This document shows, piece by piece, positions 1 through 16,897 of a stretch of 64,000 nucleotides of DNA. The notes beneath the pieces were generated by a model. That model did no database searches. It was not told where the DNA came from and saw only the letters and a program-made list of their open reading frames with translations. Position numbers and translations under genes: made by a program. Each line of letters begins with the position of its first letter. Positions within the stretch are counted from its first letter, which is position 1. Source of the stretch: Stappia stellulata (lineage in GTDB: Bacteria; Pseudomonadota; Alphaproteobacteria; Rhizobiales; Stappiaceae); NCBI RefSeq assembly GCF_020176715.1, contig NZ_JAIVMF010000009.1:62001-126000 (forward strand), read 5' to 3'.

Positions 1-428
1 CCCGGCTTGATGATCAGCAACGCGCCGATCACTCCGAGACCGCCGCCGATCAGACGGTTCGGCGTCAGGCGTTCGCGGAGAAAGATCACCGAAAGCACCG
101 ATGCGATGATCGGCCCGACGAAATAGCCGCCGAGGCCGGTGGCAAGCGGAATCTCAACGATTGCAAAGAGGAATGTCGTCATTGCGCCGACGATGAACAC
201 GGTGCGAACCGTGTTGGCGAGTGCCCCCTTGCCCAGATCGCGCAGGTTTCCGCCCTGGCCGAAAAACAGCACGGAGACGATCAGCGCTGAGCCGAAATAG
301 CGCGACCAGGCCACCAGGAACGGCGAGTGCTCGGCGCTCAGGTGTTTGGCAATCCCGTCGACAAAGGGAACGGCGAGCGATGCGGCGGCCATCAGGCCAA
401 TGCCGACAAGGGGAGTTGCAGGCCTCAT
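1..428 (-). CDS. EamA/DMT-family transporter, partial
   Basis: The reverse strand reads without a stop from an ATG at 428 to the left edge, giving about 142 N-terminal residues of an inner-membrane protein. It has alternating hydrophobic segments and short loops, and the typical EamA start of a helix followed by a conserved SPF/RYF region (HLSAEHSPFLVAWSRYF). This is the drug/metabolite transporter superfamily, whose full members have about 300 residues and ten helices; the C-terminal half lies outside the window. GGAG sits about 7 bases before the ATG. Substrate cannot be told. It is transcribed away from the biosynthetic cluster, so membership in that cluster is doubtful. Confidence 0.8.
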   Translation of the reverse strand, partial: MRPATPLVGIGLMAAASLAVPFVDGIAKHLSAEHSPFLVAWSRYFGSALIVSVLFFGQGGNLRDLGKGALANTVRTVFIVGAMTTFLFAIVEIPLATGLGGYFVGPIIASVLSVIFLRERLTPNRLIGGGLGVIGALLIIKP

Positions 429-771
429 TCAGGTCTCCGGAACGGAATAATCTAAAGGTGAAAAAAATGAAATCACACGCCCTGATGCGCATTGCCGGAC
501 CCTAGCGGGCCAGGACTGAGCCGTCCAGATCGATCGGCGCCTTTGGCCGGCGGCACGGCCGGGACTGGCAGCTTCAAGCGGCCGGAGCCAGCCTCCCGGG
601 CGCCCCGTGCTGCGGCGCGGAAAATTCAGGCGATCCGCATTGACAATCTTCGGTTTTAAAATATGCTTACCTACAACCAATTAATATTATCATCATTAAT
701 AATAATACGTTTTTTGACTTCGAGACACTCTAACAAGTGACACCCAGGACGCCGAGGTTTGTCTTTTGCAA
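429..771. other. 343-base intergenic region, AT-rich right half
   Basis: This divergent gap separates the EamA gene from the PKS operon. Its left half is GC-rich and I see no gene in it. From about 640 it becomes AT-rich, unlike the rest of the window, and includes an imperfect palindrome around 684-708 with arms TATTAT and ATAATA. It probably holds both promoters. Confidence 0.6.
640..667 (+). promoter_or_regulatory. Candidate sigma-70 promoter of the PKS operon
   Basis: TTGACA at 640-645 is a perfect -35 hexamer, followed after 16 bases by TATGCT at 662-667 (four of six matches to TATAAT). A start near 674 would leave a leader of about 100 bases containing the AT-rich palindrome. Prediction from sequence only. 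Confidence 0.4.
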
Positions 772-2079
772 ATGGACGCTCAATCGACCAGGACGCCGGC
801 GGGCCGTGTGCTCGACGCGCGTCCCGTTACCCCGCCGCCACTCGGCCCGTCACGGAAGATAGATGTGGATCTGGCGCGGGCAAGGACGCCCGGCCTTGCC
901 AACATCACCCATCTCAACAACGCCGGCGCCGCCCTGATGTCGGAGCGGGTGCTGAACACCGCGATCGAGCACCTGCGGCTTGAAGCGGTCGTCGGCGGCT
1001 ATGAGGCGGCCGACCGGGCGCAGGCGCGCATGTTCGCCGTCTATCGCTCCACCGCCGCCCTTCTCGGCTGCGCGCCGGACGAAATCGCGATCATGGAAAA
1101 CGCCTCGCGGGCCTGGGCGCTGTTCTTTGCCAGTCTCGACCTGGCACCCGGCGATGTCGTGGTGACGACCGAGGGGGAATATGCAAGCAACTTCATGTCG
1201 ATGCTTCAGGCCCGGCGGCGCTGTGGCATCGAGATCGAGGTCATCGCGCCGGGCCCGGACGGCACGGCGGACGCCGACGCGCTGCGCAAGCTGATCGACC
1301 GTCACGGCCGGCGCATCCGGCTGGTGTCGCTCACCCATGTCGCGACCAACAACGGCGCGATCTCTCCGGTCGAGACCTTGTCGCGGATCGTGCGCGAGGC
1401 GCGCGGCTCCGGCGCGCTCGCCCCCAATGCGCTGGTTGCGGTGGATGCCTGCCAGACGGTCGGGCAAATGGACGTCAACGTCGATGCGCTCGGCTGCGAC
1501 ATGCTGACGGCGACGAGCCGCAAGTTCCTGCGCGGCCCGCGCGGGGTCGGCATTCTCTATGTGCGACGCGCGCAACCGGGCCTGGCAGCGGCAGTGGAGC
1601 CGCGGATTCTCGACATGCGCAGCGGCTTCTGGAGCGGCAGCGACGAATACCGCATCTATGCCGAGGCCGAACGGTTCGAGACCTGGGACAAATGCGTTGC
1701 CTCGAAGCTTGCCTTCGGCGCGGCCGTCGACGAGGCCCTGGACTGGGGGCTCGATGCCATCGAGGCGTCGATCGGCGCGCTGTCGGCGGTGCTGCGCGAG
1801 ATGCTCGCCGACCTGCCGGGCGTGCGCCTGTGCGACACCGGTTCGCGGCAATGCGGGACCGTGACCTTCGACCTCGACCGGGGCTCGCCCTATGCGCTGG
1901 TCTCTCATCTGCGCGAACGGACCATCAACATCGGCGTCTCGGATCGCGACCTGGTGCGCCTCGACATGGACCGCCGCAACCTGGAAGCCGTCGCCCGCTG
2001 TTCCGTCCACTATTACAACACGGTGGAGGATCTGGAGCGGTTCATCGCGGCGACCGACCACTACGTGAGGTCCGCATGA
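772..2079 (+). CDS. Class V PLP-dependent aminotransferase-fold enzyme
   Basis: 435 residues of fold-type I PLP enzyme, class V (NifS/isopenicillin-N epimerase/CsdA relatives). Visible are the substrate-side LNNAG motif, the PLP aspartate in VDACQTVGQ and the Schiff-base lysine K251 in TSRKFLRGPRG. The loop that carries the catalytic cysteine in cysteine desulfurases has no HCA-type motif, so a desulfurase role is unlikely; transamination, elimination or C-S/C-N lyase chemistry is open. ATG at 772 is preferred over an in-frame TTG at 766. The stop overlaps the next ATG (ATGA). First gene of the NRPS/PKS operon; it may install or remove an amino group on the building block or product, which is inference. 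Confidence 0.8.
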   Translation: MDAQSTRTPAGRVLDARPVTPPPLGPSRKIDVDLARARTPGLANITHLNNAGAALMSERVLNTAIEHLRLEAVVGGYEAADRAQARMFAVYRSTAALLGCAPDEIAIMENASRAWALFFASLDLAPGDVVVTTEGEYASNFMSMLQARRRCGIEIEVIAPGPDGTADADALRKLIDRHGRRIRLVSLTHVATNNGAISPVETLSRIVREARGSGALAPNALVAVDACQTVGQMDVNVDALGCDMLTATSRKFLRGPRGVGILYVRRAQPGLAAAVEPRILDMRSGFWSGSDEYRIYAEAERFETWDKCVASKLAFGAAVDEALDWGLDAIEASIGALSAVLREMLADLPGVRLCDTGSRQCGTVTFDLDRGSPYALVSHLRERTINIGVSDRDLVRLDMDRRNLEAVARCSVHYYNTVEDLERFIAATDHYVRSA

Positions 2080-2933
2080 CGGCGCGCCGCACGCCGGCGT
2101 CGCCGCTGCCGCCGACGGTGTTTCAGGCCGCGGCGGGCGACGACACGCTTCTCGACCTGCATTGCCTGGCCTTCGCTGGCGGCAGCGTGCAGAGCTTCCG
2201 CCCTTGGGGCGCCGCCCTTCCAGCGGCCATCGCGCTCACGGGGCTGGAACTGCCCGGGCGCGGCCTGCGCGCGGACGATCCGCCGGCGAAGGGGTTGTCG
2301 TGCCTGCTCGACGAACTCGTCGACCGCATCGCATCGCGGCCGCCCCGGCCAATGGCGCTCTTCGGCCACAGCATGGGCGCGCTCATCGCCTTCGAACTGG
2401 CGCGGCGCCTGACGCGCGAGGGCGGGGTCGGGCCGGTCGCGCTCTTCGTCTGCGGTCACGCCGCGCCGCATCTGGCGGCAAAGCGGCACAATGGCCTGCA
2501 TGCCCTCGACGATACGGCGCTGGTGCGCCAGTTGCGCGCCTGGGGCGGAACCCCGCCGGACCTGCTCGACGACTCGGCCCTGCTGCAGCGGATCCTGCCG
2601 CCGCTCCGGGCGGATCTCGAACTCTGCGAGACCTACGCGCTTGAGGACGGCGCCCCGCTCGACATCCCGATCTTTGCCTATGCGGGCGAGACCGACGAGA
2701 CCGAACCCGTCGAGGCGGTGCGGGCATGGAGCGCGCACACGCGCGCGGCGTTCCGCTTTACCGCCTTTCCCGGCGGGCATTTCTTTTTCCTCGAATCCGC
2801 CCGCGACGCCTTCCTGCAGCGGCTCGCCAGCGACCTTCGCCTGGTGTGCAGCACGCTGCTCGCCGAGCGGGCCGCCCCGCACGAGCGTTCCGGCGCAGCG
2901 CCGGCACGGGCGCTTGCAGCCGGCGTCGCCTGA
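2076..2933 (+). CDS. Type II thioesterase (alpha/beta hydrolase)
   Basis: 285 residues with the GrsT/TEII layout: N-terminal LHCLAFAGGSVQSF oxyanion region, the nucleophile elbow GHSMGAL with S99, and a C-terminal histidine H235 in PGGHFFF. Such free-standing thioesterases act in the cytoplasm on NRPS/PKS carrier proteins, clearing misprimed or stalled acyl groups from the phosphopantetheine arm. Here it could also release the finished chain, because neither the NRPS nor the PKS protein has an integrated thioesterase. It overlaps the preceding gene by 4 bases and is followed 38 bases later by the adenylation gene, so one operon is very likely. Confidence 0.88.
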   Translation: MTARRTPASPLPPTVFQAAAGDDTLLDLHCLAFAGGSVQSFRPWGAALPAAIALTGLELPGRGLRADDPPAKGLSCLLDELVDRIASRPPRPMALFGHSMGALIAFELARRLTREGGVGPVALFVCGHAAPHLAAKRHNGLHALDDTALVRQLRAWGGTPPDLLDDSALLQRILPPLRADLELCETYALEDGAPLDIPIFAYAGETDETEPVEAVRAWSAHTRAAFRFTAFPGGHFFFLESARDAFLQRLASDLRLVCSTLLAERAAPHERSGAAPARALAAGVA

Positions 2934-2971
2934 AGCCGGGCGCAAGCGCATCCCAACCGGAGGACGATCCG

Positions 2972-4894
2972 ATGGACCACCATGAGAGCCTGCAACGCGA
3001 CACGACCCGGCCCCGCCCGCTGCATGCGCATGTCCAGGACCATGTGCGGATCGCTCCCGATGCCCCGGCGATCCGTGACGGTGCGCTTTCCCTGAGCTAC
3101 CGCGAGCTCGACGCCTGGGCCAATGCGACCGCCACCGCGCTTGTCGATCTCGGCGTGCGGCCCGGCGACCGGGTGGCGCTGGTGCTGGAACGCTCCGCCG
3201 TCGCTGTCTGCGCCATGCTGGCGGCAATGAAGGCCGGCGCGGTCTATGTGCCGGTCGACCTCGCCTATCCGGCCGAGCGCATCCGCTTCATGCTGGACGA
3301 CAGCCAGTGCGCCGCGATCCTCACCGACGGCAGCCGCCCCCTCGACGTCGCGGGCCTGCCGGTGCTGAGCCTTTCGCCCGCCGACGCGGCCTCCACACCG
3401 GCGGCATCCGCTCCAGAGCGGACGATTGGCGCGGATGATCCCGTCTACATGATCTACACCTCCGGCTCGACCGGCCGGCCGAAGGGGGTTCCGATCCTGC
3501 ATCGTGGCGTGCACGGGCTGCTTTTCGGCAATGACTATTACGCGGCCGGGCCGGGCGACCGCTTCCTGCAGACCGCGCCGATTGCCTTTGACGCCTCGGT
3601 CTTCGACATCTGGGGCGCGCTCGCGAACGGCGCGGAGCTCGTCTTCTACCGCGAGCGCATCCCGACGGCCGCGACGCTCGGCGCGGCGATCGCCGATCAC
3701 CGCATCACCACGCTGTGGCTGACCCCGTCGGTGTTCAACGGCATCGCCGCCGAGAACCCCCGCATTTTCGCCGGCGTCCGCCAGCTGGTGCTGGGCGGGG
3801 AACCGCTGTCGCCGCACCATGTGCGTCTGCTCTATGACGCGGTTGCCGACATCACGGTGATCAACGGCTACGGCCCGACCGAAAACAGCGACTTCACCTG
3901 CTGCTACCGTGTGCCGCGCGATCTCGCAGCGGACGCGCTGCGCATTCCCGTCGGCCACCCGATCGGCGGCGACGAGCTCTTCATCCTCGATGACGACGGT
4001 CGGCCCGTTGCCGATGGCGAGACCGGCGTGCTGCATATCGCCGGCACGCGCCTTACCCCCGGCTATCACAACCGCCCGGAGCTGACCGGGGCGGCGTTTC
4101 GCCCGCATCCGCATGATCCCGCGCGGCAGGTCTATGCGACCGGCGACCTGGCGCGACGCACGGAGCAGGGCCTTTATGATGTCCTCGGCCGCCGCGACGA
4201 CCAGGTGAAGGTGCGCGGCCACCGCGTCGAGCTGCCGGAAATCAATGCCGCGCTGGAGCGCCACCCGATGGTGCGGCAGGCGGCCGCGGCGCTCAAACCG
4301 CTGCCGTCCGGCGAGAACGGATTGTGCGCCTATCTCGTCGCCGAGGAGGGATCCACCCCCACCACGGCGGAGCTGCGGCGGTTTCTGGCGCAAAGCCTGC
4401 CGGACTACATGATCCCGTCGCTGTTTGTGGCGCTTCCCGCCCTGCCGCTGACCCCCAACGGCAAGCTGGACCGCGCCGCCCTGCCGGACCTCGATACGGC
4501 CGCCCGCCTGCCCGCCGGCGGCACGCGCGATGCGCCCCGCCCCGGCATGGAGGCGCGGATTGCGCGGATCTGGTGCGATTGCCTCGGCCTTACAGAGTGC
4601 AGCCGGGAGCAGACATTCTTCGAGCTCGGCGGCACGTCGCTGCTGCTCGCCAGGGTGCAAACGGCGCTGGAAAGCGAGCTTGAGACGAAGATCCCGGTCA
4701 CCGCCCTCTTCGACCACCCGCGCCTGATGGATCTCGCCACGCATCTTCAAAGCCGGCTAAGCGATGGAACGACTCCGGGGAGCCGCGCGGATGCAGGCGC
4801 AGGCGGGGATACGACTTTGCGCCGGCGCGTTGACCGCCGCCTGCGCGCCCGCACCCGTCCCGTCCGCCTGCCGGAGAGCCGCCGTGACACATGA
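2972..4894 (+). CDS. NRPS adenylation-thiolation (A-T) protein
   Basis: 640 residues. An adenylation domain (about 20-515) shows A3 YTSGSTGRPKG, A4 FDASVFDIWG, A5 NGYGPTEN, A7 YATGDLAR, A8 GRRDDQVKVRGHRVEL and A10 NGKLDRAAL. A carrier domain follows (about 530-605) with the phosphopantetheine serine S556 in FELGGTSLL. There is no condensation domain, so it activates an amino acid and passes it to another enzyme, presumably the PKS encoded next. Reading the pocket by alignment to GrsA gives D-A-F-W-V-G-G-D-F-K, close to valine codes (DAFWIGGTFK) but with Asp at position 330. GGAGGA 7 bases before ATG 2972 fixes the start. The C-terminal 35 residues are Arg-rich and unlike a domain. Confidence 0.9.
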   Translation: MDHHESLQRDTTRPRPLHAHVQDHVRIAPDAPAIRDGALSLSYRELDAWANATATALVDLGVRPGDRVALVLERSAVAVCAMLAAMKAGAVYVPVDLAYPAERIRFMLDDSQCAAILTDGSRPLDVAGLPVLSLSPADAASTPAASAPERTIGADDPVYMIYTSGSTGRPKGVPILHRGVHGLLFGNDYYAAGPGDRFLQTAPIAFDASVFDIWGALANGAELVFYRERIPTAATLGAAIADHRITTLWLTPSVFNGIAAENPRIFAGVRQLVLGGEPLSPHHVRLLYDAVADITVINGYGPTENSDFTCCYRVPRDLAADALRIPVGHPIGGDELFILDDDGRPVADGETGVLHIAGTRLTPGYHNRPELTGAAFRPHPHDPARQVYATGDLARRTEQGLYDVLGRRDDQVKVRGHRVELPEINAALERHPMVRQAAAALKPLPSGENGLCAYLVAEEGSTPTTAELRRFLAQSLPDYMIPSLFVALPALPLTPNGKLDRAALPDLDTAARLPAGGTRDAPRPGMEARIARIWCDCLGLTECSREQTFFELGGTSLLLARVQTALESELETKIPVTALFDHPRLMDLATHLQSRLSDGTTPGSRADAGAGGDTTLRRRVDRRLRARTRPVRLPESRRDT

Positions 4895-7800
4895 TGCAAC
4901 CGCCGGCGGCTGGCCGGAAACCTCCGTCGCCATTGTCGGCATGGCCTGCCGCTTTCCCGGTGCCGACGACCTTGCGTCCTTCTGGGAGATGCTCTGCGTG
5001 GGGCGCGACGCGCTGCACCGCGATCCGGCGCGGGCGGAACCCGGCTACCAGCCGGTGCGGGGCCTCGTCAGCGAGCCGGAAGGGTTCGACGCCGCCTTCT
5101 TCGGCATTCCCACGCGCGAAGCCTGCTATCTCAATCCGCAGCACCGGCTGTTCCTGGAAACCAGCCATGCGGCGCTGGAGAACGCGGGCTGCGACCCGGC
5201 ACGCTTCGACGGCGCGATCTCCGTCTATGCCTCCTGCAGCCAGAACCGCTATCACGAACAGCTGTTACGGATCGTCCGCTCGCCGGCGGAACGCAGCCTC
5301 GCCTACAGTTCCAACTACGCGGAATATGCGCCGAGCCGGGTGTCCTACCGCCTTGACCTGCGCGGCGAGAGCATGGCGGTTCAAACGGCGTGCTCCTCCT
5401 CGCTCGTCGGCATTCACATGGCGTGCCAGAGCCTTCTGTCCGGCAGCAGCGACATGGCGCTTGCCGGCGGGGTGAACGTCGCGACGGCGGAAGAATTCGG
5501 CTACCGCACCCAGCAGGGACTGCATTTCTCGCTGTCCGGTCATTGCCGCCCCTTCGACGCCCGCGCCGACGGCATGGTCTCCAGCGACGGGGTCGGCGTG
5601 GTCGCGTTGAAGCGGCTGGACGACGCGCTGGCCGACGGCGACCACATCTGGGCGGTGATCCGCGGCTCCGCGATCAACAACGACGGCGCGTCGAAGATGA
5701 GCTACACCGCGCCCGGCATCGACGGACAGGCCGAGGCCATCGCGCTGGCGCAGGAGCTCGCCGACGTCCATCCCGAGACCCTGTCCTATATCGAGGCGCA
5801 TGGCACCGGCACGCTTCTCGGCGACCCGATCGAGGTCGAGGCGCTGACCCGCGCCTTTCGGCTGAAGACGCAGGCGACCGGGATCGCGGCACTCGGCTCC
5901 CTGAAGGCCAACATCGGCCACACGGTGCATGCCGCCGGCGTCGCCAGCACCATCAAGCTTGCGCTGATGATGCACCACCGCAAGATCCCGCCCGCCCCCG
6001 GGTTCGAAACGCCCAATCCGGCCATCGACTTCGCCAACACCCCCTTTCGCATTGCAACTGCGCTTGAAGACTGGAAGAGCCCCGGCGCTCCCCGCCGTGG
6101 CGGCGTCAGCGCACTCGGCTTCGGCGGCACCAACGCCCATGCCATCCTGGAGGAAGCGCCGCGACGGCCCGAGCGACCGCCGGCGAGCGCCCCCGCCGTC
6201 CTGCCGGTCTCCGCCAAGACCGCGACCGCGCTGAAACGGATGGTCGAGGCCCTGGGGTCGGCCTTCGCCGCCGATCCCGCGCTCGACATGCGCGACGCCT
6301 CGCGCACGCTGCGCGAGGGCCGCGGCACCCATTCCCATCGCGCGGCCGTCGTTGCAGCCGATGCCGCGGAGGCGGCCCGGCGCCTCGCGGCGCTTGCCGG
6401 GGCGCAAACGCCCTCCGGCTCCTGGGTCCCGCCGCTGTTCGTGTTTTCCGGCCGCACCGGCGAGGAGACGCCGGAAGAGCTTTCCCTGTCCGGCGCGTTT
6501 CCGGCGTTTCGCGACGCCTGCGCCGAAGCCCGCGCCGCCCTGCCCGCGCGGATCGCCCCGGAACCGGCCGATGCCTTCGTGCTCGCCCATGCGCTTGTCA
6601 GCCTGTGGCGCGATCTTGGGGTTCTTCCCGGCGCCTGTGTCGGCACCGGGCCGGGACGGCTGTTCGCCCGCCACCTGTTCGCGGCCAGCGTGGAAGGCGG
6701 CGCCAGTCGCGCCGCTCGCCTTGCCCGGGCGGCGGCGGAGCTGGCGGAAGAGCCCCCCTTTGCCACGACCTGGTCGGCTGTCGTCGCCGACCCCGCAGAT
6801 AAAGCGCCTGCGGCCGGGGGCGAGGTCCTGGACCCGCTGGGTGCTGCGCTGTGCCTTGCAACGGGCGAAACCGGCGGCATCGCGAAAATCTCCCCGCGTC
6901 CGGCAGCAGCCGGCGCGGAAGCCAAGCCCGAGCGCGCGCAGCACCGCCCCCCGGTCACGAGTTTCGCCGCGCAGTGTCTGTCGCAGGGCCGACCGGTGAT
7001 CGAGATCGGGCCAGACGGGTTCCTTTCCGACCTCCTGCGCATCGAGGCCACCCCGGCGACCCTGCCGCTGATCGTCTCCAGCCTTCCGACCGCAGGACCG
7101 CGCCCGGCCCATCGACCGGACGCAGTGTCCCATCTGCTCACCGCGGCCTCACGCCTTTGGCAGGCGGGCGCGCCGGTTCGCCTCGATGCGTTTCCGCAGG
7201 CGTCGGACGCCCGGCTGGTGCCGCTTCCCGGCTATGCCTATGAGCGCAAGACCTACGGGCTTGCCGATCTTGCCTCCGGTCGCGGATCTAAGCCGGTCGC
7301 GTCCGCGTCTCCCGCAGCTTCCGTCGAGGCGCGGACGAGACCCCGCAAGCAGGCCGACATCGCCGACTGGTTTCACCAGCGCCGCTGGCGCGCGACCCGC
7401 CTGCCGGCGCCCCATGACGCGGCTCGTCCGGACGAAGACACCACGTCACCGGCGCGGATCGTCTTCCTCCGCGACCCGCAATGGCAACAGGCGCTCACTG
7501 CCGCCCTGCGCCAGACGGGCGCGGGCCGCGTGATCGAGGTCCGACCCGGCACCGGCTATGAACGCCACGGAGAGGACCGCTTCACCATCGATCCCTCGGA
7601 TACCGCCTCCCACAAGCTGCTCTTCGACGCGCTGGAGCGCGACGGGGTGGCGTGGCGCGACCTGCTCTATCTGTGGTGCGACACTGCTACTCCCGACGCG
7701 AACCTTTCAGCCAGCGTGCTCTGGCCGCTGGCGCTTGCAAGAGCGCTCGGCGGGCGACGGGACAAAAGCCGCCTGTGGTTCGTCACCTGCGGCGCGCAGC

Positions 7801-9161
7801 ATCTGCCGGGCGACACGACCATCGCGGCCGAGGCCGCGCCGCTTGCCGCGTTGGCGCGGGTGATCGCGCAGGAGCACCGCACGCTCGACGCCCGCGCGCT
7901 CGACCTGCCCCTATCCCTCGATGAAACGCCGGATACGGGCGCGCGCGCCATCGGCTGGATCCTCGATGAGCTTCACGATCCCGGTGACGAGCGCGAGATC
8001 GCCTGGCGCGGCCGGGCGCGCTTCGTGCCGGAACTGGTGCCGGCAAGGCCAACAGACGCGGACGCCTCCGCCGCGACCGGCGCGCGCCTGTGGGGCGGCG
8101 GCGGTGCGCATGTGATCTTCGGGGGAACCGGCCATGTCGGGCTGGCGCTTGCCGGCGAGATCGCCCGGTCCGCACCCGATGCGCGGCTTTATCTCGCCTC
8201 GCGCTCGGGCAGGGTCCGCGACGCCGGGGCAGAGGCGCTGTCGGCGCTCTTGAACAGCGGCGCGCATGTCTCGCTGCACGCCGTCGATCTCGCCGATGGC
8301 GGCGCGGTGGCGGAACTGTTTCGCAAGGCGCAGGCGGAGAGCGGCGCCATCGCTACGGTGATCCATGCCGCCGGCGTGGTCGACACCGATCACCTGAAGT
8401 TCATCCGCGACACGCCGCCGGCCCTTGCCGCCGACCTCCTGGTTCCGCATGTCGCGGGCATGCGCGCGCTCGCCGATGCGGTGGCAGAAACGCCGGTCGG
8501 CAAGGTGCTTCTGTGTTCCAGCCTGTCGTGTTTCGTCGGCGGGTTGAGCTACGGCGCGCATGCCGCCGGCCATCGCCACATGGATGCCGTGGCGCTGCGC
8601 GAGAGGCTTGCGGGCCGTTCGAAAGCCGCGTGGATTGTCGTCAACTACGACACATGGCACGTGCCGTCGCGCGAGAAGACCATCGGCGCGGGCGGCGCCG
8701 ACTGGGCCATCGAACCGGCGGAAGGCGCGGCCGTGCTTGCGCTTGCAGCCGCTGCCGGCGCCGGCGAGCACGCGATTTCGACGGTGCCGCTCACCGACAG
8801 GCCGGGGCTCTCCGACACCGCGTCGTCGCGCCCTGCCCCGCCTTCGCCGCAAGGCGCGGCCGCGCCGCAGGATCGCGCGCCGGCACCGGTGCGCGCCCCG
8901 GCTGCGGCGGAGGAGCCGGCCGCCGACGGTCTGGCCGCCATGGTTGCCGCCTGCTTCAAGGACGTGCTCGGCGCGGACACGGTCGGCCCCCAGGACAATT
9001 TCTTCGAGCTTGGCGGGGAATCGCTGATGATGCTCGACGTGATCGACCTGATCCGGCAGCGCAGCGGAATTTCGGTTCCCGCTGCCGATGCCTTCAAGGC
9101 GCTGACGGTGGCCGACATGACGCGCCTGTGCGAGGCGCAGGCGACGACCAGGGAAACTTAG
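4884..9161 (+). CDS. One-module PKS: KS - degenerate AT - KR-like - ACP
   Basis: 1425 residues from GTG 4884, which has GGAGAG just upstream and overlaps the previous stop by 11 bases; an upstream ATG at 4764 would overlap far more and adds no domain. KS (about 13-437) is complete: C170 in TACSSS, H306 in EAHGTGT, H346 in NIGH. At about 515-790 lies an AT-like linker and remnant: the GHSxGE nucleophile motif is replaced by GTGPGR, and the segment is shorter than a working AT. A ketoreductase region (about 830-1280) has the nucleotide motif FGGTGHVG, but the YxxxN position reads H1226. ACP (about 1350-1420) has S1380 in GGESLM. It would extend the amino acid loaded on the A-T protein, needing malonyl transfer in trans. 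Confidence 0.9.
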   Translation: MTHDATAGGWPETSVAIVGMACRFPGADDLASFWEMLCVGRDALHRDPARAEPGYQPVRGLVSEPEGFDAAFFGIPTREACYLNPQHRLFLETSHAALENAGCDPARFDGAISVYASCSQNRYHEQLLRIVRSPAERSLAYSSNYAEYAPSRVSYRLDLRGESMAVQTACSSSLVGIHMACQSLLSGSSDMALAGGVNVATAEEFGYRTQQGLHFSLSGHCRPFDARADGMVSSDGVGVVALKRLDDALADGDHIWAVIRGSAINNDGASKMSYTAPGIDGQAEAIALAQELADVHPETLSYIEAHGTGTLLGDPIEVEALTRAFRLKTQATGIAALGSLKANIGHTVHAAGVASTIKLALMMHHRKIPPAPGFETPNPAIDFANTPFRIATALEDWKSPGAPRRGGVSALGFGGTNAHAILEEAPRRPERPPASAPAVLPVSAKTATALKRMVEALGSAFAADPALDMRDASRTLREGRGTHSHRAAVVAADAAEAARRLAALAGAQTPSGSWVPPLFVFSGRTGEETPEELSLSGAFPAFRDACAEARAALPARIAPEPADAFVLAHALVSLWRDLGVLPGACVGTGPGRLFARHLFAASVEGGASRAARLARAAAELAEEPPFATTWSAVVADPADKAPAAGGEVLDPLGAALCLATGETGGIAKISPRPAAAGAEAKPERAQHRPPVTSFAAQCLSQGRPVIEIGPDGFLSDLLRIEATPATLPLIVSSLPTAGPRPAHRPDAVSHLLTAASRLWQAGAPVRLDAFPQASDARLVPLPGYAYERKTYGLADLASGRGSKPVASASPAASVEARTRPRKQADIADWFHQRRWRATRLPAPHDAARPDEDTTSPARIVFLRDPQWQQALTAALRQTGAGRVIEVRPGTGYERHGEDRFTIDPSDTASHKLLFDALERDGVAWRDLLYLWCDTATPDANLSASVLWPLALARALGGRRDKSRLWFVTCGAQHLPGDTTIAAEAAPLAALARVIAQEHRTLDARALDLPLSLDETPDTGARAIGWILDELHDPGDEREIAWRGRARFVPELVPARPTDADASAATGARLWGGGGAHVIFGGTGHVGLALAGEIARSAPDARLYLASRSGRVRDAGAEALSALLNSGAHVSLHAVDLADGGAVAELFRKAQAESGAIATVIHAAGVVDTDHLKFIRDTPPALAADLLVPHVAGMRALADAVAETPVGKVLLCSSLSCFVGGLSYGAHAAGHRHMDAVALRERLAGRSKAAWIVVNYDTWHVPSREKTIGAGGADWAIEPAEGAAVLALAAAAGAGEHAISTVPLTDRPGLSDTASSRPAPPSPQGAAAPQDRAPAPVRAPAAAEEPAADGLAAMVAACFKDVLGADTVGPQDNFFELGGESLMMLDVIDLIRQRSGISVPAADAFKALTVADMTRLCEAQATTRET

Positions 9162-9170
9162 CCGGCTGTT

Positions 9171-10358
9171 TCAGCCCGGAACCGGCCGTCGCATGAAGAC
9201 GACCGCCGCAACCAGCGCCCCCGCGCCGAGCGAGCCTGCCACCAGCGCCAGCGGCGCAATCCCGGCGCGGTCCAGAACCGCGCCGCCGGCCCAGGCGCCG
9301 GCGGAAATGCCGATATAGATCAGCGAGCTGTTCAGCGACAGGATCAGCGTGCCGCCCCCACCGGCATGGCTGAGCAGGCGGTGCTGGATCGGCACCAGAT
9401 ACATGTAGCTGGCGATGCCCCAGACGAAGCCGACGGCGACCGTAAAGAGCGCCGCATCGCGCCAGACGACGAGCGCGACGAGAAGCGCCGTCTGCGCCGC
9501 CACCGCGCCGACGAGCACCTGCAGCGGCCCGAGCCGGTCGGTCAGGATCCCGGTGGCGAAATTGCCGGCGAGCGCGCCGATGCCATAGGCGAGCAGCACC
9601 GCCGGGAGGATCGGCGCCCCGGCGTAGGTGGTTCCGTCGAGGATCACGCTCACATAGGTGTAGACGACGAATTCCGACAGCACGATCAGGAAGGTCACCA
9701 GCAAGAGCCCGGCGGTTGCCGGGGTCAGCGCGCGCGAGGCGCTCGCAGCCGCCGGGGCAGCCGCGCCGACGGGCAAACGCCCCATCAGCGGCGCCAGGAT
9801 CGCCAGCGCGACGAGGCCCAGCACGACGACGAAATAAAACGCATAGCGCCAGTCGAACATCTGGCCGATCAGGGTCGCAAGCGGGATGCCGGCCGCCTGG
9901 GCGACGGTCATGCCGCCGAAGATCACCGCAAGGGCGGCGCCCTTACGATGCGGCGGCACCAGATCGGAGGCAAGCGCGGTTGCCGCCGGCGTGAAGATCG
10001 CAGCCCCCAGCGCCGACACGATCCGGCCCGCGACGATCTGGTAAAAGCCCGTCGCCAGACCGCAGGCCAGATTGCCGGCGAGAAAAAAGCCGATGGCCAG
10101 CAGGATCACCCGGCGCCGGTCGAGCCCGCGCAACAGCCAGGCGCTCAGCGGCGCGAAGACGGCATAGGACAGCGCATAGACCGACACGAGCTGCCCGGCG
10201 CGCGTTGCCGGAATCTCCAGGCTTTCGGCGATCTCGTTGAGCACGCCGATCACCACGAAGGTGTCCATGCCGATGGCCACCGCGCCCACGCCCAGCGCCG
10301 CCAGCAGCACCGTCTGGTGCGAGACGCCGCGCAGGGTCTTCGATCCGCTACCGCTCAT
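9171..10358 (-). CDS. MFS transporter, DHA1-type exporter
   Basis: 395 residues, about twelve hydrophobic segments. The loop after helix 2 has a weak version of the MFS motif A (LLRGLDRRRVIL), and a second loop (GILTDRLGPLQVL) gives the repeat in the C-terminal half. This places it in the drug:proton antiporter 1 family of inner-membrane exporters (AraJ/Bcr-like). It is the last gene of the minus-strand operon, 62 bases after the BacA-like gene, and ends 9 bases from the PKS stop. Export of the cluster product and self-protection are the natural inference. There is no terminator in the 9-base gap between the convergent operons. Confidence 0.85.
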   Translation of the reverse strand: MSGSGSKTLRGVSHQTVLLAALGVGAVAIGMDTFVVIGVLNEIAESLEIPATRAGQLVSVYALSYAVFAPLSAWLLRGLDRRRVILLAIGFFLAGNLACGLATGFYQIVAGRIVSALGAAIFTPAATALASDLVPPHRKGAALAVIFGGMTVAQAAGIPLATLIGQMFDWRYAFYFVVVLGLVALAILAPLMGRLPVGAAAPAAASASRALTPATAGLLLVTFLIVLSEFVVYTYVSVILDGTTYAGAPILPAVLLAYGIGALAGNFATGILTDRLGPLQVLVGAVAAQTALLVALVVWRDAALFTVAVGFVWGIASYMYLVPIQHRLLSHAGGGGTLILSLNSSLIYIGISAGAWAGGAVLDRAGIAPLALVAGSLGAGALVAAVVFMRRPVPG

Positions 10359-10420
10359 GTCGCTCCGTCTTCAAGGGTGTCGCAGGGGTCGCCGTTATCG
10401 CCGGCCAGACGATCACACCC

Positions 10421-10993
10421 TCACCCCGCATGCAACTCTGGATAGGGATTTCCCATCAGCTTCCCGCGATAGCGCGGTTTCGGGCCATAGACGATCCAGG
10501 TGGTGACCACCTCGCCGATCACCCGCATGATCTCGAGCGCCTCTGGATGGTCGCGCGCGGAGCGGGTGTAGGCGACGCCGGCCTCGTAGCGCCCGGCGAG
10601 CAGGCCCTGCTCCACGACCGGTTTGGTGGTCTCGAAGGTGATCTCGCGCCAGTCGGCCTCGTTCACATAGCCGAGCGCGGGTTCCGGCACGCCCAGCGTT
10701 TGCGGCCTGGCGACGTCGCGGCGCTTGACCAGCGCCATTTCCTGGGTCGGCAGGATGAAGGTGTCGACCACATGGAGCCGGCCGAGAAACCGCTCGGTCA
10801 CCTGATGCACGTTCAGATGCGCGCTGCACTGAAGCACGTAGGAATTGCCCTCTTCCACCGCGCGGGCGGCGGCCGCGACCAGATCGTCGCACAGCGCGAT
10901 GTCGGCCTCCTCGACCCCCTGGAACGCGAGATACCGCTTCAGCGCGTGCTCGTGGCAGCTTCCCGCCGGGCCGAGCGTGTGAAAGCGGATCAT
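10421..10993 (-). CDS. BacA/prephenate-decarboxylase-like protein
   Basis: 190 residues that begin with the periplasmic-binding-like fold of prephenate dehydratases: HTLGPAGSCHEHA near the start, then VVDTFILPTQEMALV, and a C-terminal TTWIVYGPKPRYRG. The TRF motif and ACT domain of PheA are absent. The pattern (LGPxG start, about 190-200 residues, W-x-hh-hG at the end) fits BacA of bacilysin biosynthesis and its relatives, which decarboxylate prephenate without making an aromatic ring. ATG overlaps the chorismate mutase stop by 4 bases (ATGA). Given PabA/PabB upstream, the substrate may be 4-amino-4-deoxyprephenate. Family assignment is from remembered motifs, so moderate confidence. Confidence 0.68.
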   Translation of the reverse strand: MIRFHTLGPAGSCHEHALKRYLAFQGVEEADIALCDDLVAAAARAVEEGNSYVLQCSAHLNVHQVTERFLGRLHVVDTFILPTQEMALVKRRDVARPQTLGVPEPALGYVNEADWREITFETTKPVVEQGLLAGRYEAGVAYTRSARDHPEALEIMRVIGEVVTTWIVYGPKPRYRGKLMGNPYPELHAG

Positions 10994-11280
10994 CGCTCGA
11001 TGATCCGGTCTTCCAGCGCGCAGGCCTCGCCGATGATCAGCCCGTAGAGCGCGCGAACGAACTCCGGATCGAGCCCCTGGTCCGCGCCCAGTTTCGCACA
11101 GCGGCTCTTCACCTCCTCCACCCGGTCGGGCTGCATCATGGCGATGCCATGGCGGCGCTTGGTGTGCGCCACCTGCGCGCATATCGTCAGGCGTTCGGCC
11201 ACCAGCGTGACCAGCTTCTCGTCGATCGCGTTCAGCTGGTCACGATAGGGCGCCAGCAGGCTTTGCGTGTCGGCCGTCAT
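10990..11280 (-). CDS. AroQ-class chorismate mutase (PapB-like)
   Basis: 96 residues, all helical, of the AroQ fold. The N-terminal YRDQLNAIDEKLVTLVAERL places the usual arginine and first helix; K in VAHTKRRHG, then MMQPDRVEEV and the C-terminal GEACALEDRIIER complete the active-site pattern. The enzyme rearranges chorismate to prephenate. Stand-alone mutases beside PabA/PabB (as PapB in 4-aminophenylalanine pathways) work on 4-amino-4-deoxychorismate, and that is the likely substrate here. The gene begins inside the 3' end of the HDAC-like gene (41-base overlap) and overlaps the BacA-like gene by 4 bases, so translation is coupled. Confidence 0.88.
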   Translation of the reverse strand: MTADTQSLLAPYRDQLNAIDEKLVTLVAERLTICAQVAHTKRRHGIAMMQPDRVEEVKSRCAKLGADQGLDPEFVRALYGLIIGEACALEDRIIER

Positions 11281-12304
11281 CCGTTCCGCTCTCCCTTGTG
11301 TCAGGCGCTGTATCAGCCTCAAGGCCGATCAGACCCTTGGTGAAATGCGCGGCACAGTCCTCCAGCGCGGAGAGCAGGTAGCCGCCCTCCTGCACCACGC
11401 AGACCGGCAGCCCGCTTTGGCGAAGGATCTCGCCCACCCCGGCGAAGACATCCGGCGACAGGCGCCAGCCGCCATGCGGATCGCCGTCGATCACGTCGTA
11501 GCCGAGCGACAGCACCAGCATCCCGGCACCGGTTGCCACGGCCTGCTCCACGAGACGGGACACCACCGCCAGATAGGCTTGCGCATCCGGCGGCGCGTCA
11601 AAGGCATGAAACACATGTGCGGGAAGGGCCGGCGCCAGATCCGGCTGATGCGGAAAGGCGACCTCGCCCGGGGCATGGCAACTGAACACCGCGATGTCTG
11701 GATGGGCGGCGAGACAATCCGTGGTGCCGTTTCCCGCGTGATAGTCGATGTCGATCACCGCGACCCGCGCCCGCGTCTGGCGACGCAGCGCCAGCGCCGC
11801 GAGCGCCGCATTGTTGAGAAAACAATAGCCGCCGAAGAACCGCCGCCCGGCGTGATGCCCGGGCGGACGGCACAGCGCATAGACATGAGCCGCCTCCCCG
11901 CGTCCGAGCGCGGCGGCAGCGGCAACGGCCGCCGTTGCGGAAGTCAGGGCGCGGGCTGCGGAATCGGCTGCCACCGGCGTGTCCTGCTCGACGCCGGGCG
12001 CCGCGAAAGCCTGGCCCTGCGGCGTGATCGCGGGGGCGGCCGGATGCGGTCCATGTTCGAGAAACGCCAGATAGGCCGGGTCATGCGCCAGCGGCAAGAG
12101 GCTGCGCAGCATGCGCGGCGTGCGCTGCGGGATCTCCGCGCCGCGCGCCCGAGCCCCGGCCGCCCGCAGGATCCCGGAACGAATGCGCGCGGTGCGCTCG
12201 GCCACCTCATTGGACGGTCTGAGCGTGCCGCGTGCTGTGCGGATCGCGGCGCGCGGTTCGGCGCGATGCGCCACGTCGAAGATCAGGAGGCCGGGCCGCG
12301 TCAT
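11240..12304 (-). CDS. HDAC-family (acetylpolyamine-type) deacetylase
   Basis: 354 residues of the arginase-like zinc amidohydrolase superfamily. The His pair H150-H151 is in RPPGHHAG, zinc ligands D187 and H189 are in DIDYHAGNG, the third ligand D270 is in LGYDVIDGDPHG, and the transition-state tyrosine is in QEGGYLLS. Bacterial members remove acetyl groups from amines (polyamines, acetylated small molecules). It overlaps the pabB-GNAT stop by 4 bases. Sitting directly after a GNAT domain in the same operon, it may remove an N-acetyl group added earlier, as a mask or self-protection step; this role is inference. Confidence 0.88.
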   Translation of the reverse strand: MTRPGLLIFDVAHRAEPRAAIRTARGTLRPSNEVAERTARIRSGILRAAGARARGAEIPQRTPRMLRSLLPLAHDPAYLAFLEHGPHPAAPAITPQGQAFAAPGVEQDTPVAADSAARALTSATAAVAAAAALGRGEAAHVYALCRPPGHHAGRRFFGGYCFLNNAALAALALRRQTRARVAVIDIDYHAGNGTTDCLAAHPDIAVFSCHAPGEVAFPHQPDLAPALPAHVFHAFDAPPDAQAYLAVVSRLVEQAVATGAGMLVLSLGYDVIDGDPHGGWRLSPDVFAGVGEILRQSGLPVCVVQEGGYLLSALEDCAAHFTKGLIGLEADTAPDTRESGTDDGRHAKPAGALS

Positions 12305-14307
12305 GCAAGGCTCCGCCGCATGCGCTGGCCGGCCGGGGCATATCCGGCGCGGGCATAGAACGCCTGCAATCGCTCCGCCTGAGGATGGCCGGGCTTCGGC
12401 AGGGACACTTCCACCAGCGGCAGGCTCCGCCGTCGCGCTTCCGCATCGACCGCCGCAAGCAGCGCCGCGCCGACACCGCCGCTGCGCGCGCCCGCGTCGA
12501 CCCAGAGTTCCTGCAGCACGGCATAATCCCCCGAGGTGCGCGCGGCCCGGACCACGGAGACGAGCGCGACGCCGGCAATGGCGCCGCCGTCCGTTTCCGC
12601 GATGCGGATGAAGCCGAGGCTCTCGTCCTCGGCAAAGCCTTCGCAGACGGCGCGTGTCGCCCCGGCGCGGAACTGCGGCCCCGGCCCGCCAAGTTCGCGC
12701 AGCAGCGCCTCCACGGCTGCGGCCACGGCACCGGCCTCGTCCTTGCGCGGCCGGCGCACCCTTGCCCCGGTGACGGTTTGGTCCAGAGGCGTGGCACCGG
12801 CATTCGCAACCTGCGGGGCGCTTTCGGTCGAGGCGCCCGCCGCCTCGGCAACGGCGGCCATCGGCGCGCGCGCCTTCAGCAGGATCTCGTCGAACTCGGC
12901 CTGCGGGTCGGAGAGATAGACGATCGCCCCGCCGCAGCCGATGGACACATGGCCCGGCGTGCAGACGACGGTGCGGATGACGATGTTGAGGTCGACCGCG
13001 CCGGTCAGCGACAGAAAGCCGATGGCGCCGGAATAGACGCCGCGCGCCGCGCCCTCCAGCCGGTCGATGATCTCCAGCGTGCGCACCTTGGGCGCGCCGG
13101 TCATCGAGCCGCCTGGGAAACAGGAGGCAATGCAACTCACCGGGCTTTCGTCGGCGCGAAGCCGTCCGCGTACGACGGAGACGAGCTGGTGCACCGTCTG
13201 GTAGCTTTCCACATGCATCAGGCTTGGCACATGCACCGAGCCGGTCTCGCACACCCGGCCGAGATCGTTGCGCATCAGATCGACGATCATCAGGTTTTCC
13301 GAACGGCTTTTCTCGTCAAGCCGCAGGCTTTCGGCAATCGCCGCGTCGCGGGCCGGATCGGGGTCGCGCCGTTCCGTTCCCTTGATCGGCTTGGTCTCCA
13401 CGGTTCCGTCCGGATCGATGCGCAGGAAGCGCTCAGGCGAGGAACTGGCAATCGCGAGATCGCCGAAGCGCAGGAAGGCGGAATAGGGCGCGGGGTTGCG
13501 GCGGCGCAAGATGCAGTAGAGATCGAGCGGATCGAGATCCACCTCCGCCTCGATGGTGTTGGTGAGGCAGATCTCGTAGCTTTCGCCGGCGGCGATTTCC
13601 TCAAGGCATTCCTCGATCCGCGCCAGATAGGCGGCACGATCATGGCGCAGGCGGAACTGCGGCGCCTGTCTCGCCGGTCTTGCTGCGGACGGCGCCGGCT
13701 CGCGAACCTTCCCGAGCGCATCAATCGTCTCGTCCACCCATCGCTGCGCGGCGCGGCAATCCGCCGGATCGCCGTGACAGGCCAGGGCGATGGCATGCAC
13801 GGTGCCGCCCCGGTGATCGAACGCCAGCAGGCGGTCGGCGAACAGGAAGGCGGCGTCCGGCGTCGGCGCCTCATGCGCGGCCGCGCCGCAGGTCAGGCGC
13901 TTGAGTTCATAACCGAAAAAGCCGACATGCCCGCCGACGAAGGGGCAGTCGAGACCGGGCGGCGGATCAAGGGCGGGCGTCCTGTGAACCCCGTCCAGGT
14001 AGTCGAACACAGACGTCGCGAGCGGCCGGGGCGCGCCGTTGCCCCCGGTCCGGATCTCGCCGCACTGGCCGCCGTCGCGAAAGATCACGGAACGGGCATG
14101 CGGACCGGAGGCATCGCCCATGAAGGAGAAGCGCGACAGCCCCGGCACCAGGAGGCTGCTATCGAGCCAGAAGGCCTCGCGCGCCGCGCCGAAGAGATGC
14201 ACGAACACGGCCTCCGCCGAGACGGACAGGGCCTGGCTGCGCCAAACGACCTCGAACGCGCCACTGTGCGTGTCGGCGGTCTCGGGCGGATCGATCACGT
14301 CAGCCAC
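12301..14307 (-). CDS. pabB: Aminodeoxychorismate synthase component I fused to a GNAT domain
   Basis: 668 residues from GTG 14307, which has GGAGGGGG about 8 bases upstream and directly follows the pabA stop; an upstream ATG at 14412 would overlap pabA by about 100 bases. Residues about 30-500 form a chorismate-binding domain with KPIKGT, RSENLMIVDLMRNDLG, PGGSMTGAPK and IGCGGAIVYLS. The lysine of PIKGT marks PabB-type enzymes; anthranilate synthases have PIAGT. From about residue 525 there is a complete GNAT acetyltransferase with ELWVDAGARSGGVGAALL as the acetyl-CoA loop. The fusion is not standard folate pabB. With PabA it should make 4-amino-4-deoxychorismate; the GNAT may acetylate the amine. 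Confidence 0.88.
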   Translation of the reverse strand: MADVIDPPETADTHSGAFEVVWRSQALSVSAEAVFVHLFGAAREAFWLDSSLLVPGLSRFSFMGDASGPHARSVIFRDGGQCGEIRTGGNGAPRPLATSVFDYLDGVHRTPALDPPPGLDCPFVGGHVGFFGYELKRLTCGAAAHEAPTPDAAFLFADRLLAFDHRGGTVHAIALACHGDPADCRAAQRWVDETIDALGKVREPAPSAARPARQAPQFRLRHDRAAYLARIEECLEEIAAGESYEICLTNTIEAEVDLDPLDLYCILRRRNPAPYSAFLRFGDLAIASSSPERFLRIDPDGTVETKPIKGTERRDPDPARDAAIAESLRLDEKSRSENLMIVDLMRNDLGRVCETGSVHVPSLMHVESYQTVHQLVSVVRGRLRADESPVSCIASCFPGGSMTGAPKVRTLEIIDRLEGAARGVYSGAIGFLSLTGAVDLNIVIRTVVCTPGHVSIGCGGAIVYLSDPQAEFDEILLKARAPMAAVAEAAGASTESAPQVANAGATPLDQTVTGARVRRPRKDEAGAVAAAVEALLRELGGPGPQFRAGATRAVCEGFAEDESLGFIRIAETDGGAIAGVALVSVVRAARTSGDYAVLQELWVDAGARSGGVGAALLAAVDAEARRRSLPLVEVSLPKPGHPQAERLQAFYARAGYAPAGQRMRRSLA

Positions 14308-14308
14308 C

Positions 14309-14959
14309 TCAGACCCCCTCCGGCTCGAGGCGCGCGGGCGCGACCCGCCCCATCCGCGCGGCGGGACGGGCACCGGCAGGCGCGACAAAATTCGCCAAAA
14401 GCGCGGCGCCATGTTCGGAGCAGATCGATTCTGGATGAAACTGCACTCCCCGCAGCGGCCGGCTGCGATGGCGCACCGCCATGATCAGCCCCTCGCGGGT
14501 TTCGGCAATGCTTTCCAGGCACGCAGGCAGCGGCGGACGGGCGATCAAGGAATGATAGCGCGTGACGTCGAAGGCGGCCGGCAAGCCTGCGAACAGGGGA
14601 TCGGGGCGGCAGTGAATGCGGCTGATGCGTCCGTGAAAGGGTTCGGGCGCCCGCCCGACATCACCGCCGAAATGCGCGACAAGGCATTGATGCCCCAGGC
14701 AGATGCCAAGCACGGGACATTCCGCATACCGCAGGACATCCATCGAGGACCCGACATCGGCCGCGCGCTGGGGCGTGCCCGGTCCCGGCGACAGGATGAT
14801 CCGGCGATGCGGTATCTTGCGGATCTCGCGCCAGGGAACCGAATTGGGAAGAACCACCGGCTCTTCCCCGGCCGCTTCCGCGACCATCTGCGCCACGTTG
14901 AAGGTGAAGGAATCGTAGTTGTCGACAATGATCGTCCCGCCAGCAGGATTGATAGACAT
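14309..14959 (-). CDS. pabA: Aminodeoxychorismate/anthranilate synthase glutamine amidotransferase
   Basis: 216 residues of class I glutamine amidotransferase: VDNYDSFTFNVAQ at the start, LSPGPGTP oxyanion region, nucleophilic cysteine in GICLGHQ and the His-Glu pair in QFHPES. It releases ammonia from glutamine for the PabB partner encoded immediately downstream (stop and next start are 1 base apart). It is the first gene of the six-gene minus-strand operon. The tail after the catalytic HPE (about 35 residues, Pro/Ala/Arg-rich) is longer than usual. Confidence 0.9.
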   Translation of the reverse strand: MSINPAGGTIIVDNYDSFTFNVAQMVAEAAGEEPVVLPNSVPWREIRKIPHRRIILSPGPGTPQRAADVGSSMDVLRYAECPVLGICLGHQCLVAHFGGDVGRAPEPFHGRISRIHCRPDPLFAGLPAAFDVTRYHSLIARPPLPACLESIAETREGLIMAVRHRSRPLRGVQFHPESICSEHGAALLANFVAPAGARPAARMGRVAPARLEPEGV

Positions 14960-15205: not shown

Positions 15206-15787
15206 TCAGGCCCTCAGCGCCGCTTCGTCGATCAGGCGCTTGACCATCGCCTCGAGCAATCCGGCGGCGCGTTCATTGGACAATACACCATCGTCGTCAA
15301 AGGCGGAGGCAGCGGCGGGGACCGTCGACATCTCGGGGATGACCAAGGCGCCATAGCCGATTTCCATGATCGTTCGCAGCCCCATCAGGCCGCGAATGCC
15401 GCCCAGCGCGCCGGGCGAGGCGGCGCCAAGCGCGAAGACCCGGCTCTTGAAGGCCGCCGCCGGCGGCTCGCCATCGGCAGACAGACGCGACACCCAGTCG
15501 AGCGTGTTCTTCAACAAGGGGGAGACCGAGGTATTGTACTCGGGGCTGGCGATGAAAATGCCGTGATGGGCCTGCATCACCTCTTTCAGCGCCTTCGCCG
15601 CCTCGGGTACGCCCTCATTCGCTTCCAGATCGCCGTTGTAGATCGGCATCGGATAGTCGGCCAGAGAGATCCGGGTCGCCTCGGCGCCGGCTTCGGATGC
15701 GGTCCGCGTCACCAGTTCGGCAAGACGCGTATTGTAGGAGCCGGACCGGGTCGACCCGGAAAACGTGAGAATGCGAACGTCTTTCAT
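15206..15787 (-). CDS. NADPH-dependent FMN reductase
   Basis: 193 residues of the flavodoxin-like FMN_red family: SGSTRSGSYNTRL at the N-terminus binds the FMN phosphate and SPEYNTSVSPLLKNTLDWVSR is the conserved middle motif. Such proteins reduce FMN, quinones, azo dyes or chromate in the cytosol with NAD(P)H. The gene is transcribed in the same direction as the pab operon but is separated from it by 246 bases, so a link to the cluster is not shown. Start ATG 15787 gives the full family N-terminus. Confidence 0.9.
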   Translation of the reverse strand: MKDVRILTFSGSTRSGSYNTRLAELVTRTASEAGAEATRISLADYPMPIYNGDLEANEGVPEAAKALKEVMQAHHGIFIASPEYNTSVSPLLKNTLDWVSRLSADGEPPAAAFKSRVFALGAASPGALGGIRGLMGLRTIMEIGYGALVIPEMSTVPAAASAFDDDGVLSNERAAGLLEAMVKRLIDEAALRA

Positions 15788-15904
15788 GAAATACCTCACA
15801 GTCGATTCAAAGAGGGGCCGGCGGAAGCCAGACGGAACCCAGTCACCTGATATAAACAGGATACGGGTGTTGACCAGTGCGGGTGCGACAGGAGGGCAAC
15901 AGAC

Positions 15905-16749: not shown

Positions 16750-16763
16750 GAGACCCCCAATAA

Positions 16764-16810: not shown

Positions 16811-16897
16811 GAAATGCGCAGCCGGCAAGCCCTACCGTAGCGACAGGAAAGCCCGCCGGTCGGCGGGACCATCTCTTGTGCGGTGAGGATCTGACCC

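Follow-up and report, generated by a model that had tools for sequence, protein, structure and literature searches.

The window analysed here is a stretch of 64,000 nucleotides (nt) from Stappia stellulata (contig NZ_JAIVMF010000009.1, positions 62,001 to 126,000), and this work concerns a biosynthetic gene cluster occupying its positions 772-14959. An earlier note, made from the letters alone, described there two convergent operons with only 9 bases between their stops, and this layout is borne out by the coordinates of the open reading frames (ORFs), the gap falling at 9162-9170. The ten genes named in that note lie where it placed them according to the same ORFs and Pfam backs nine of the ten domain calls; the start of PabB-GNAT represents a choice among several, and that of the polyketide synthase (PKS) is GTG:

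772..2079, plus strand: class V pyridoxal phosphate (PLP) enzyme (Pfam Aminotran_5, 4.5e-49; predicted Schiff-base lysine in TSRKF)
2076..2933, plus strand: type II thioesterase (TEII) with GHSMG motif (Pfam Thioesterase, 1.3e-44)
2972..4894, plus strand: adenylation-thiolation (A-T) didomain without condensation domain (domain search, pocket code, motifs)
4884..9161, plus strand: PKS with ketosynthase (KS), inactive acyltransferase (AT), inactive ketoreductase (KR) and acyl carrier protein (ACP) domains (domain search and motif state)
9171..10358, minus strand: major facilitator superfamily (MFS) exporter, probable immunity pump (Pfam MFS_1, 7.1e-38; Cmx/CmrA-like, under its cut-off)
10421..10993, minus strand: BacA-like protein of 190 amino acids (aa), proposed non-aromatising decarboxylase of 4-amino-4-deoxyprephenate (predicted fold)
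10990..11280, minus strand: chorismate-mutase-like (CM-like) protein, proposed 4-amino-4-deoxychorismate mutase (CM_2, 6.3e-20)
11240..12304, minus strand: HDAC-like zinc amidohydrolase, proposed N-deacetylase (Hist_deacetyl, 5.8e-50)
12301..14298, minus strand: PabB (aminodeoxychorismate synthase I) with a C-terminal GNAT acetyltransferase fused to it (Chorismate_bind, 3.4e-85; Acetyltransf_7, 2.2e-6)
14309..14959, minus strand: PabA-type glutamine amidotransferase (GATase, 5.8e-46; GICLGHQ and FHPES motifs)

On the plus strand the PLP enzyme and TEII genes overlap by 4 nt and those of A-T and PKS by 11 nt, while on the minus strand the overlaps amount to 4 nt (PabB/HDAC), 41 nt (HDAC/CM) and 4 nt (CM/BacA), and the G+C content within 772-14959 is 0.700 against 0.673 in the remainder of the window to the right. 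A chance arrangement is unlikely, all ten genes being carried in the same order by another genome of the genus (G010) at 76-98% protein identity.

The hybrid assembly line of nonribosomal peptide synthetase (NRPS) and PKS claimed by the earlier note holds, as A, T, KS and ACP all show active-site motifs, with the Cys and both His motifs of the KS intact. Its reading of the AT as inactive was also right, but the loss of catalytic residues from the KR had escaped it. The nucleophile motif of the AT, a remnant recognised by eye, reads GTGPG without the serine, and alignment to the Lsd14 KR reveals the catalytic Tyr replaced by His and the Asn likewise by His, the same letters standing at both domains in three of three genomes. 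A working reductive PKS module is thus rejected, and from the lost residues of AT and KR we infer that the line would add no more than an unreduced C2 unit, its malonyl coming in trans. The pocket code of the A domain, DAFWVGGDF, retains the Asp needed for an alpha-amino group and shows a further, unusual Asp at what we take to be position 330 in the accepted numbering. The class V PLP enzyme resembles EgtE and SufS, yet scores under curated cut-offs; its nearest entries in the PDB are SufS and hercynylcysteine sulfoxide lyase, and it is a possible aminotransferase for a keto acid.

The proposal of a dedicated aminochorismate pathway is sustained as well. PabB scores 368.2 on TIGR00553 against a cut-off of 328.4 and contains PIKGT, a motif found in all nine PabB proteins checked (cassettes and Variovorax), the lysine of which we take to be diagnostic of aminodeoxychorismate synthase. 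Two further chorismate-binding proteins encoded by the host genome are devoid of PIKGT, one carrying PISGT and one giving no PIxGT match, and a single further CM_2 protein is encoded there, so that the genes of the cluster are extra copies. The CM-like protein reaches 80.1 bits on TIGR01803 (cut-off 73.35), presumably the class holding PapB and PchB. No PapC-type (prephenate-dehydrogenase-type) protein is present among the ten, the dehydrogenase-named matches being fused chorismate-mutase models matched through the CM domain, or else PKS and A-domain models. In the HDAC-like protein the catalytic motifs PGHHA, DIDYH, GYDVIDGDP and EGGY supply the HH pair, the zinc-ligand Asp/His/Asp and the catalytic Tyr, as seen also in a five-protein alignment, and its PDB neighbours are HDAC6 and acetylpolyamine amidohydrolases. 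Ordinary synthesis of folate or p-aminobenzoate was rejected on finding no PabC-type match among the ten proteins. A common siderophore, which the earlier note had named as one outcome that would overturn it, was set aside too: no siderophore-only set is evident among these proteins and no siderophore-specific equivalog exceeds its cut-off.

The BacA-like protein gives no match in Pfam or NCBIfam. Its AlphaFold2 model (pLDDT 93.4) has as best Foldseek match the prephenate dehydratase 3mwb (E 2.5e-10), to which VIA structural alignment fits 183 positions with Z 16.0 and root-mean-square deviation 4.3; VIA ranks from 7 onward are other folds, mostly of periplasmic-binding type with Z <=10.5, and were not used. 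The protein is thus predicted to be the catalytic domain of prephenate dehydratase alone, as a length of 190 aa provides no space for a C-terminal ACT part, and this fold of the model rules out BacA in the sense of undecaprenyl-phosphatase. Its TLGPxG(S) we take to resemble that of BacA, a sequence search of PDB returned no link to prephenate dehydratase, and at what seems to be the like-placed position in the last strand the dehydratases of the same genome have NTTRF/NLTRF where the BacA-like protein has TTW. The nearest named record belongs to a metagenome-assembled genome, "Rhodobacteraceae bacterium SP118" (98% in the BacA-like protein).

Within the genus, sampled by 14 genomes including the own one (G000-G013), full-length PKS is present in three (G000, G006 and G010), and in four more only the part with the KS finds a match. 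The contig of G006 begins at the PKS, leaving seven of the ten genes visible, and G011 holds a relic composed of scraps of PLP enzyme, A-T and PKS, a part of the BacA-like gene and a whole MFS gene. The regions fetched from G007, G012, G005, G003 and G009 contain the right-flank genes but not the cluster, and a left-flank HslU-like gene, recognised by eye, lies within a few kilobases of them in G007 and G009, the regions of G012, G005 and G003 stopping short of it. Because G007 and G009 thus exhibit an empty site with both flanks, the block together with an EamA gene at its left edge looks inserted in the carrier lineage, and within the genus both operons go together as what looks like an inserted block. 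The earlier expectation that the operons would be found together elsewhere was therefore right as far as other genomes of the genus are concerned; the derived claim of one pathway making one product gains from this co-occurrence, but loses from the fact that the pair is not obligate, the minus-strand operon recurring alone. Two further features adjoin the cluster on the left:

3..428, minus strand: N-terminal half of an EamA/DMT exporter, the remainder lying left of the window (Pfam EamA, 5.5e-11)
640..667, plus strand: promoter-like TTGACA-16-TATGCT in an AT-rich stretch ahead of the plus-strand operon (weak: 1 found against 0.8 expected in shuffles)

The EamA gene, complete in locus L110 (284 aa), adjoins the cluster in G010 and the relic in G011 and has no match in the five fetched regions free of the cluster, and it is probably a second exporter belonging to the same inserted block. 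Occurrence of the right-flank genes in those five genomes led us to reject them as cluster members; in the window they occupy 15206-18103 (FMN reductase, a small protein, an Lrp-type regulator and a PLP enzyme of Cys/Met metabolism) and are kept at the site in cluster-free genomes of the genus.

More widely, a BacA-like pattern scan of one genome per species over 84,980 species yielded 43 loci. HDAC was found in six of them (L023-L028) and GNAT also in six (L023-L026, L028, L050), so that five of the seven loci having either gene possess both, with HDAC only in L027 and GNAT only in L050; PabB was detected in 12, CM in 12 and PKS in one (L023, the G006 genome). The cassette is present in Bradyrhizobium sp. 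132, B. australiense and B. archetypum, with HDAC broken in the latter two species, decayed in Sinorhizobium psoraleae and reduced to a remnant in B. jicamae. Bradyrhizobium sp. 187 carries it on a plasmid without the PLP/TEII/A-T/PKS operon; not far from it, past a transposase gene, lie an NRPS (Formyl_trans, A, T, condensation, A, T and thioesterase domains) and a class I aminotransferase. Saccharospirillum salsuginis, a gammaproteobacterium, has a row of PabA, PabB, GNAT (here a separate gene), HDAC, CM and BacA-like genes that leads on to genes for an EamA exporter, an enzyme of ATP-grasp type and an aminotransferase of class IV; MFS has no match, a plus-type operon is not there, and the gene set is of dipeptide type. 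Thus the minus-strand operon is a movable cassette combined with different assembly enzymes in other bacteria. In the tree of 35 BacA-like proteins (33 of the 43 loci, the window and L016) six cassette rows fall on one side of a branch with support 94/96; near copies, broken and partial sequences (L026, L027, L035, L040, L041, L043, L055, L057, L058 and L065) were left out, L026, L027 and L058 among them being cassette or relic loci.

Signs of a toxic product come from the decay of these loci. In five of them biosynthetic genes are broken or gone (G011, B. jicamae, B. australiense, B. archetypum and S. psoraleae), and all but the last retain an open, full-length MFS gene. Its dN/dS is 0.155-0.175 for the G011 relic versus intact copies, 0.138-0.149 among intact copies and 0.123-0.149 for B. 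jicamae versus other Bradyrhizobium copies. Retention of the pump fits kept immunity to a toxic product.

Taken as a whole, the genes and their arrangement, their domains and motifs, the predicted fold, the recurrence of the cassette and its relics give about an even chance that the cluster makes a small, probably antibacterial, non-aromatic amine-bearing amino-acid product, although each chemical step, the points at which the acetyl group goes on and comes off, and the target are putative. PabA and PabB would convert chorismate to 4-amino-4-deoxychorismate (ADC), the CM-like enzyme would turn ADC into 4-amino-4-deoxyprephenate, and the BacA-like protein would decarboxylate the latter without aromatisation, giving 4-amino-dihydrophenylpyruvate (C9H11NO3) and not 4-aminophenylpyruvate (C9H9NO3). 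The GNAT domain on PabB may acetylate the ring amine early, keeping the compound inert inside the cell, while the class V PLP enzyme would convert the keto acid to the alpha-amino acid, A-T would load it, and KS would add one malonyl unit; with a dead AT this would have to be delivered as malonyl-ACP in trans, and with a dead KR its beta-keto group would stay. TEII may help release or proofreading, the HDAC-like enzyme would take the acetyl group off at the end, and the MFS pump would bring the product out of the cell. An amine on a non-aromatic ring would explain both a dehydratase-fold protein in place of a PapC-type dehydrogenase and the common travel of acetylase and deacetylase.

Several known systems share parts of this logic. 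PMC13111796 presents stravidins as carriers of amiclenomycin inhibiting BioA, and PMC13336041 describes the isolation of a stravidin with N-acetyl-amiclenomycin and a sta operon, located between streptavidin genes, which was assigned also on genes of branched-chain amino acid metabolism. Among the ten proteins of the window no such branched-chain (leucine-type) homologation family occurs, and, unlike sta as described, the window set has the A-T/KS line, the PabB-GNAT fusion and the HDAC-like hydrolase. A putative set of ADC synthase, ADC mutase and decarboxylase is present in it by family and predicted fold, the substrates being presumed. The likeness lies in a chorismate-derived non-aromatic amine-bearing amino acid, which in Streptomyces presumably arises by the first steps of p-aminophenylalanine (PAPA) synthesis followed by non-aromatising decarboxylation; Montaser and Kelleher in 2020 reportedly derived the stravidin warhead from chorismate via a distinctive decarboxylation. 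The bac operon of bacilysin employs a dehydratase-type decarboxylase without regulatory domain (BacA), like the one proposed here, and ATP-grasp and aminotransferase genes accompany the Saccharospirillum cassette too, but bac presumably starts from prephenate rather than its amino analogue and has no PabAB, GNAT or HDAC. The PAPA pathways (pap, cml) presumably share PabA/PabB and a TIGR01803-type mutase, whereas the window set has the BacA-like protein instead of a PapC-type dehydrogenase. The nda cluster of S. virginiae, producing ANDA, is a similarly compact set of NRPS, PKS and transporter making a small amino acid, but ANDA has a glutamate-derived part and aminochorismate genes are not mentioned in the available text of PMC13336041. 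No description of the gene set was found in the open-access literature among the matches listed, subscription papers being mostly outside this scope, so the word "undescribed" in the earlier note stands to that extent, although the close logic of stravidin and amiclenomycin is already in print. What is known is the existence of dihydro-aromatic amino-acid antibiotics; what is new is the combination of assembly enzymes and a proposed acetyl protect/deprotect pair.

A protective role of this pair is itself debatable. GNAT may instead form an obligatory N-acetyl intermediate or an acylated final product, and the HDAC-like enzyme may cut a different amide, for instance in release or resistance; polyamine deacetylases among its PDB neighbours agree with this, the natural N-acetyl-amiclenomycin stravidin (PMC13336041) demonstrates that the acetyl can persist in a product, and pairing alone gives no direction. 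Co-occurrence of the two genes in five of the seven loci having either is nevertheless easier to reconcile with a matched pair than with unrelated steps, and we find this alternative doubtful.

It is unlikely that the locus houses two independent pathways, the aminochorismate cassette standing by chance next to an A-T/KS pathway of no relation to it. The cassette does live without the PKS operon elsewhere, and the operons are convergent with no common promoter, but both occupy one site, where G010 has the two intact and G011 has the two in decay. Besides, genes that activate or ligate amino acids are located near other cassettes (B. sp. 187, B. australiense, B. archetypum and Saccharospirillum, with none seen at B. 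sp. 132), and the cassette of the window has none of its own.

Similarly improbable, if possible, and not supported is the proposal that the product targets biotin synthesis at BioA as amiclenomycin does, its producers being immune as non-makers of biotin. The predicted warhead logic is the same, and bioB exceeds its cut-off in none of the four cluster or relic genomes versus six of the ten others of the genus, but this contrast does not reach significance (hypergeometric 0.07, or 0.15 if the relic is left out), the carriers are closely related and the completeness of G006 is 85%. Moreover, bioB is over cut-off in six of seven genomes reached via cassette loci (split in two in S. psoraleae), the exception being the G006 genome. 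Two other tests of a biotin link were set aside: the bioA model is over cut-off in none of the 14 genus genomes, those bearing bioB included, and is thereby uninformative, and avidin (PF01382) is found in none of the 14 with the control for the model also silent everywhere. Presence of bioB is patchy in the genus (over cut-off in six of the 14), and biotin auxotrophy may therefore vary within it.

An aromatic route, in which the cassette makes PAPA, the BacA-like protein aids aromatisation or is accessory, and PAPA is then lengthened by A-T/KS in the manner of other antibiotics derived from it, is quite improbable: PabA, PabB and CM are presumably the opening steps of the PAPA pathway, but no PapC-type dehydrogenase is there to follow them, the BacA-like gene accompanies PabB, GNAT and HDAC in five loci (albeit loci found via BacA-like), and a dehydratase reaction on aminoprephenate would expel the very amine put in by PabAB.

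Some observations weigh against the non-aromatic product and the pathway proposed for it. The BacA-like protein was placed by predicted fold; its sequence profile gives no link to the dehydratases of its own genome (E 0.0086, probability 4.7), and Pfam PDT matches weakly in 12 of 35 BacA-like relatives and not at all in the window protein. PabB is unseen in 31 of the 43 BacA-like loci, some of which end at contig ends, and the family may therefore serve other functions. In three of three records examined (of 78) relatives of the PLP enzyme adjoin amino-acid ABC transporters, which makes the aminotransferase role a guess, and the A-domain code agrees with none of the four Bradyrhizobium A domains compared. 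The substrates of GNAT and of the HDAC-like enzyme are putative. As to the pump, the S. psoraleae MFS is cut short, with a match over just residues 1-159 of 396, and its retention is thus not universal; open MFS genes elsewhere could reflect recent loss of the cluster, with a part of the constraint being older than this loss.

Accepting the non-aromatic amine-bearing product, one may tentatively go further, to a scheme that we regard as rather speculative. A mobile cassette would deliver a 4-aminocyclohexadienyl unit capped from birth by PabB-GNAT and uncapped by the HDAC-type hydrolase, plugged into three assembly chemistries (an A-T/KS line whose AT and KR are dead, formyl-dipeptide NRPS and ATP-grasp ligase) in two proteobacterial classes, and the form in the window would yield a C2-extended beta-keto relative of amiclenomycin, an inhibitor of PLP enzymes of a kind not known before. 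If the main reading of a non-aromatic product is right, amiclenomycin-type chemistry, with its BioA inhibitors of interest in tuberculosis, would extend from Streptomyces to proteobacteria, the compact six-gene precursor cassette would be a candidate for E. coli, and GNAT with an HDAC-type hydrolase would represent an added protect/deprotect logic. A BacA-like gene adjoining HDAC-like and PabB-GNAT genes would then also offer a handle for genome mining.

The scan also uncovered BacA-like genes in other surroundings. Six Variovorax loci (L031, L032, L039, L045, L046 and L052) combine BacA-like with PabA/PabB and give no GNAT or HDAC match, L031 having in addition an EamA exporter and L045 a similar ORF; they constitute a second kind of aminochorismate/BacA-like cluster. 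Halomonas and its kin (L054, L056, L059, L061-L064) form a BacA-like branch with no other cluster-gene match in the fetched stretches. On a plasmid of Pseudoalteromonas xiamenensis (L015, 4388-19103) BacA-like is accompanied by a branched-chain aminotransferase, two adjoining ATP-grasp genes with a third upstream, flavin oxidoreductases and DAHP synthase/chorismate mutase, which looks like a bacilysin-type dipeptide cluster, and a plasmid of Tritonibacter mobilis (L014, 2140-9303) bears a distant BacA-like gene, annotated as prephenate dehydratase, near acyl-CoA dehydrogenase and vanadium haloperoxidase. Finally, PabB matches were obtained in four of 397 genomes, the own one included. The three others (G324, G350 and G362) were rejected as relatives of the cassette, their PabAB loci having no HDAC, CM or BacA-like matches; each has a class IV aminotransferase-like gene nearby, and L067 (G350) and L068 (G362) show AMP-binding, thioesterase and PKS matches as well, so that the PabAB loci of these two genomes perhaps make polyketides primed on p-aminobenzoate.

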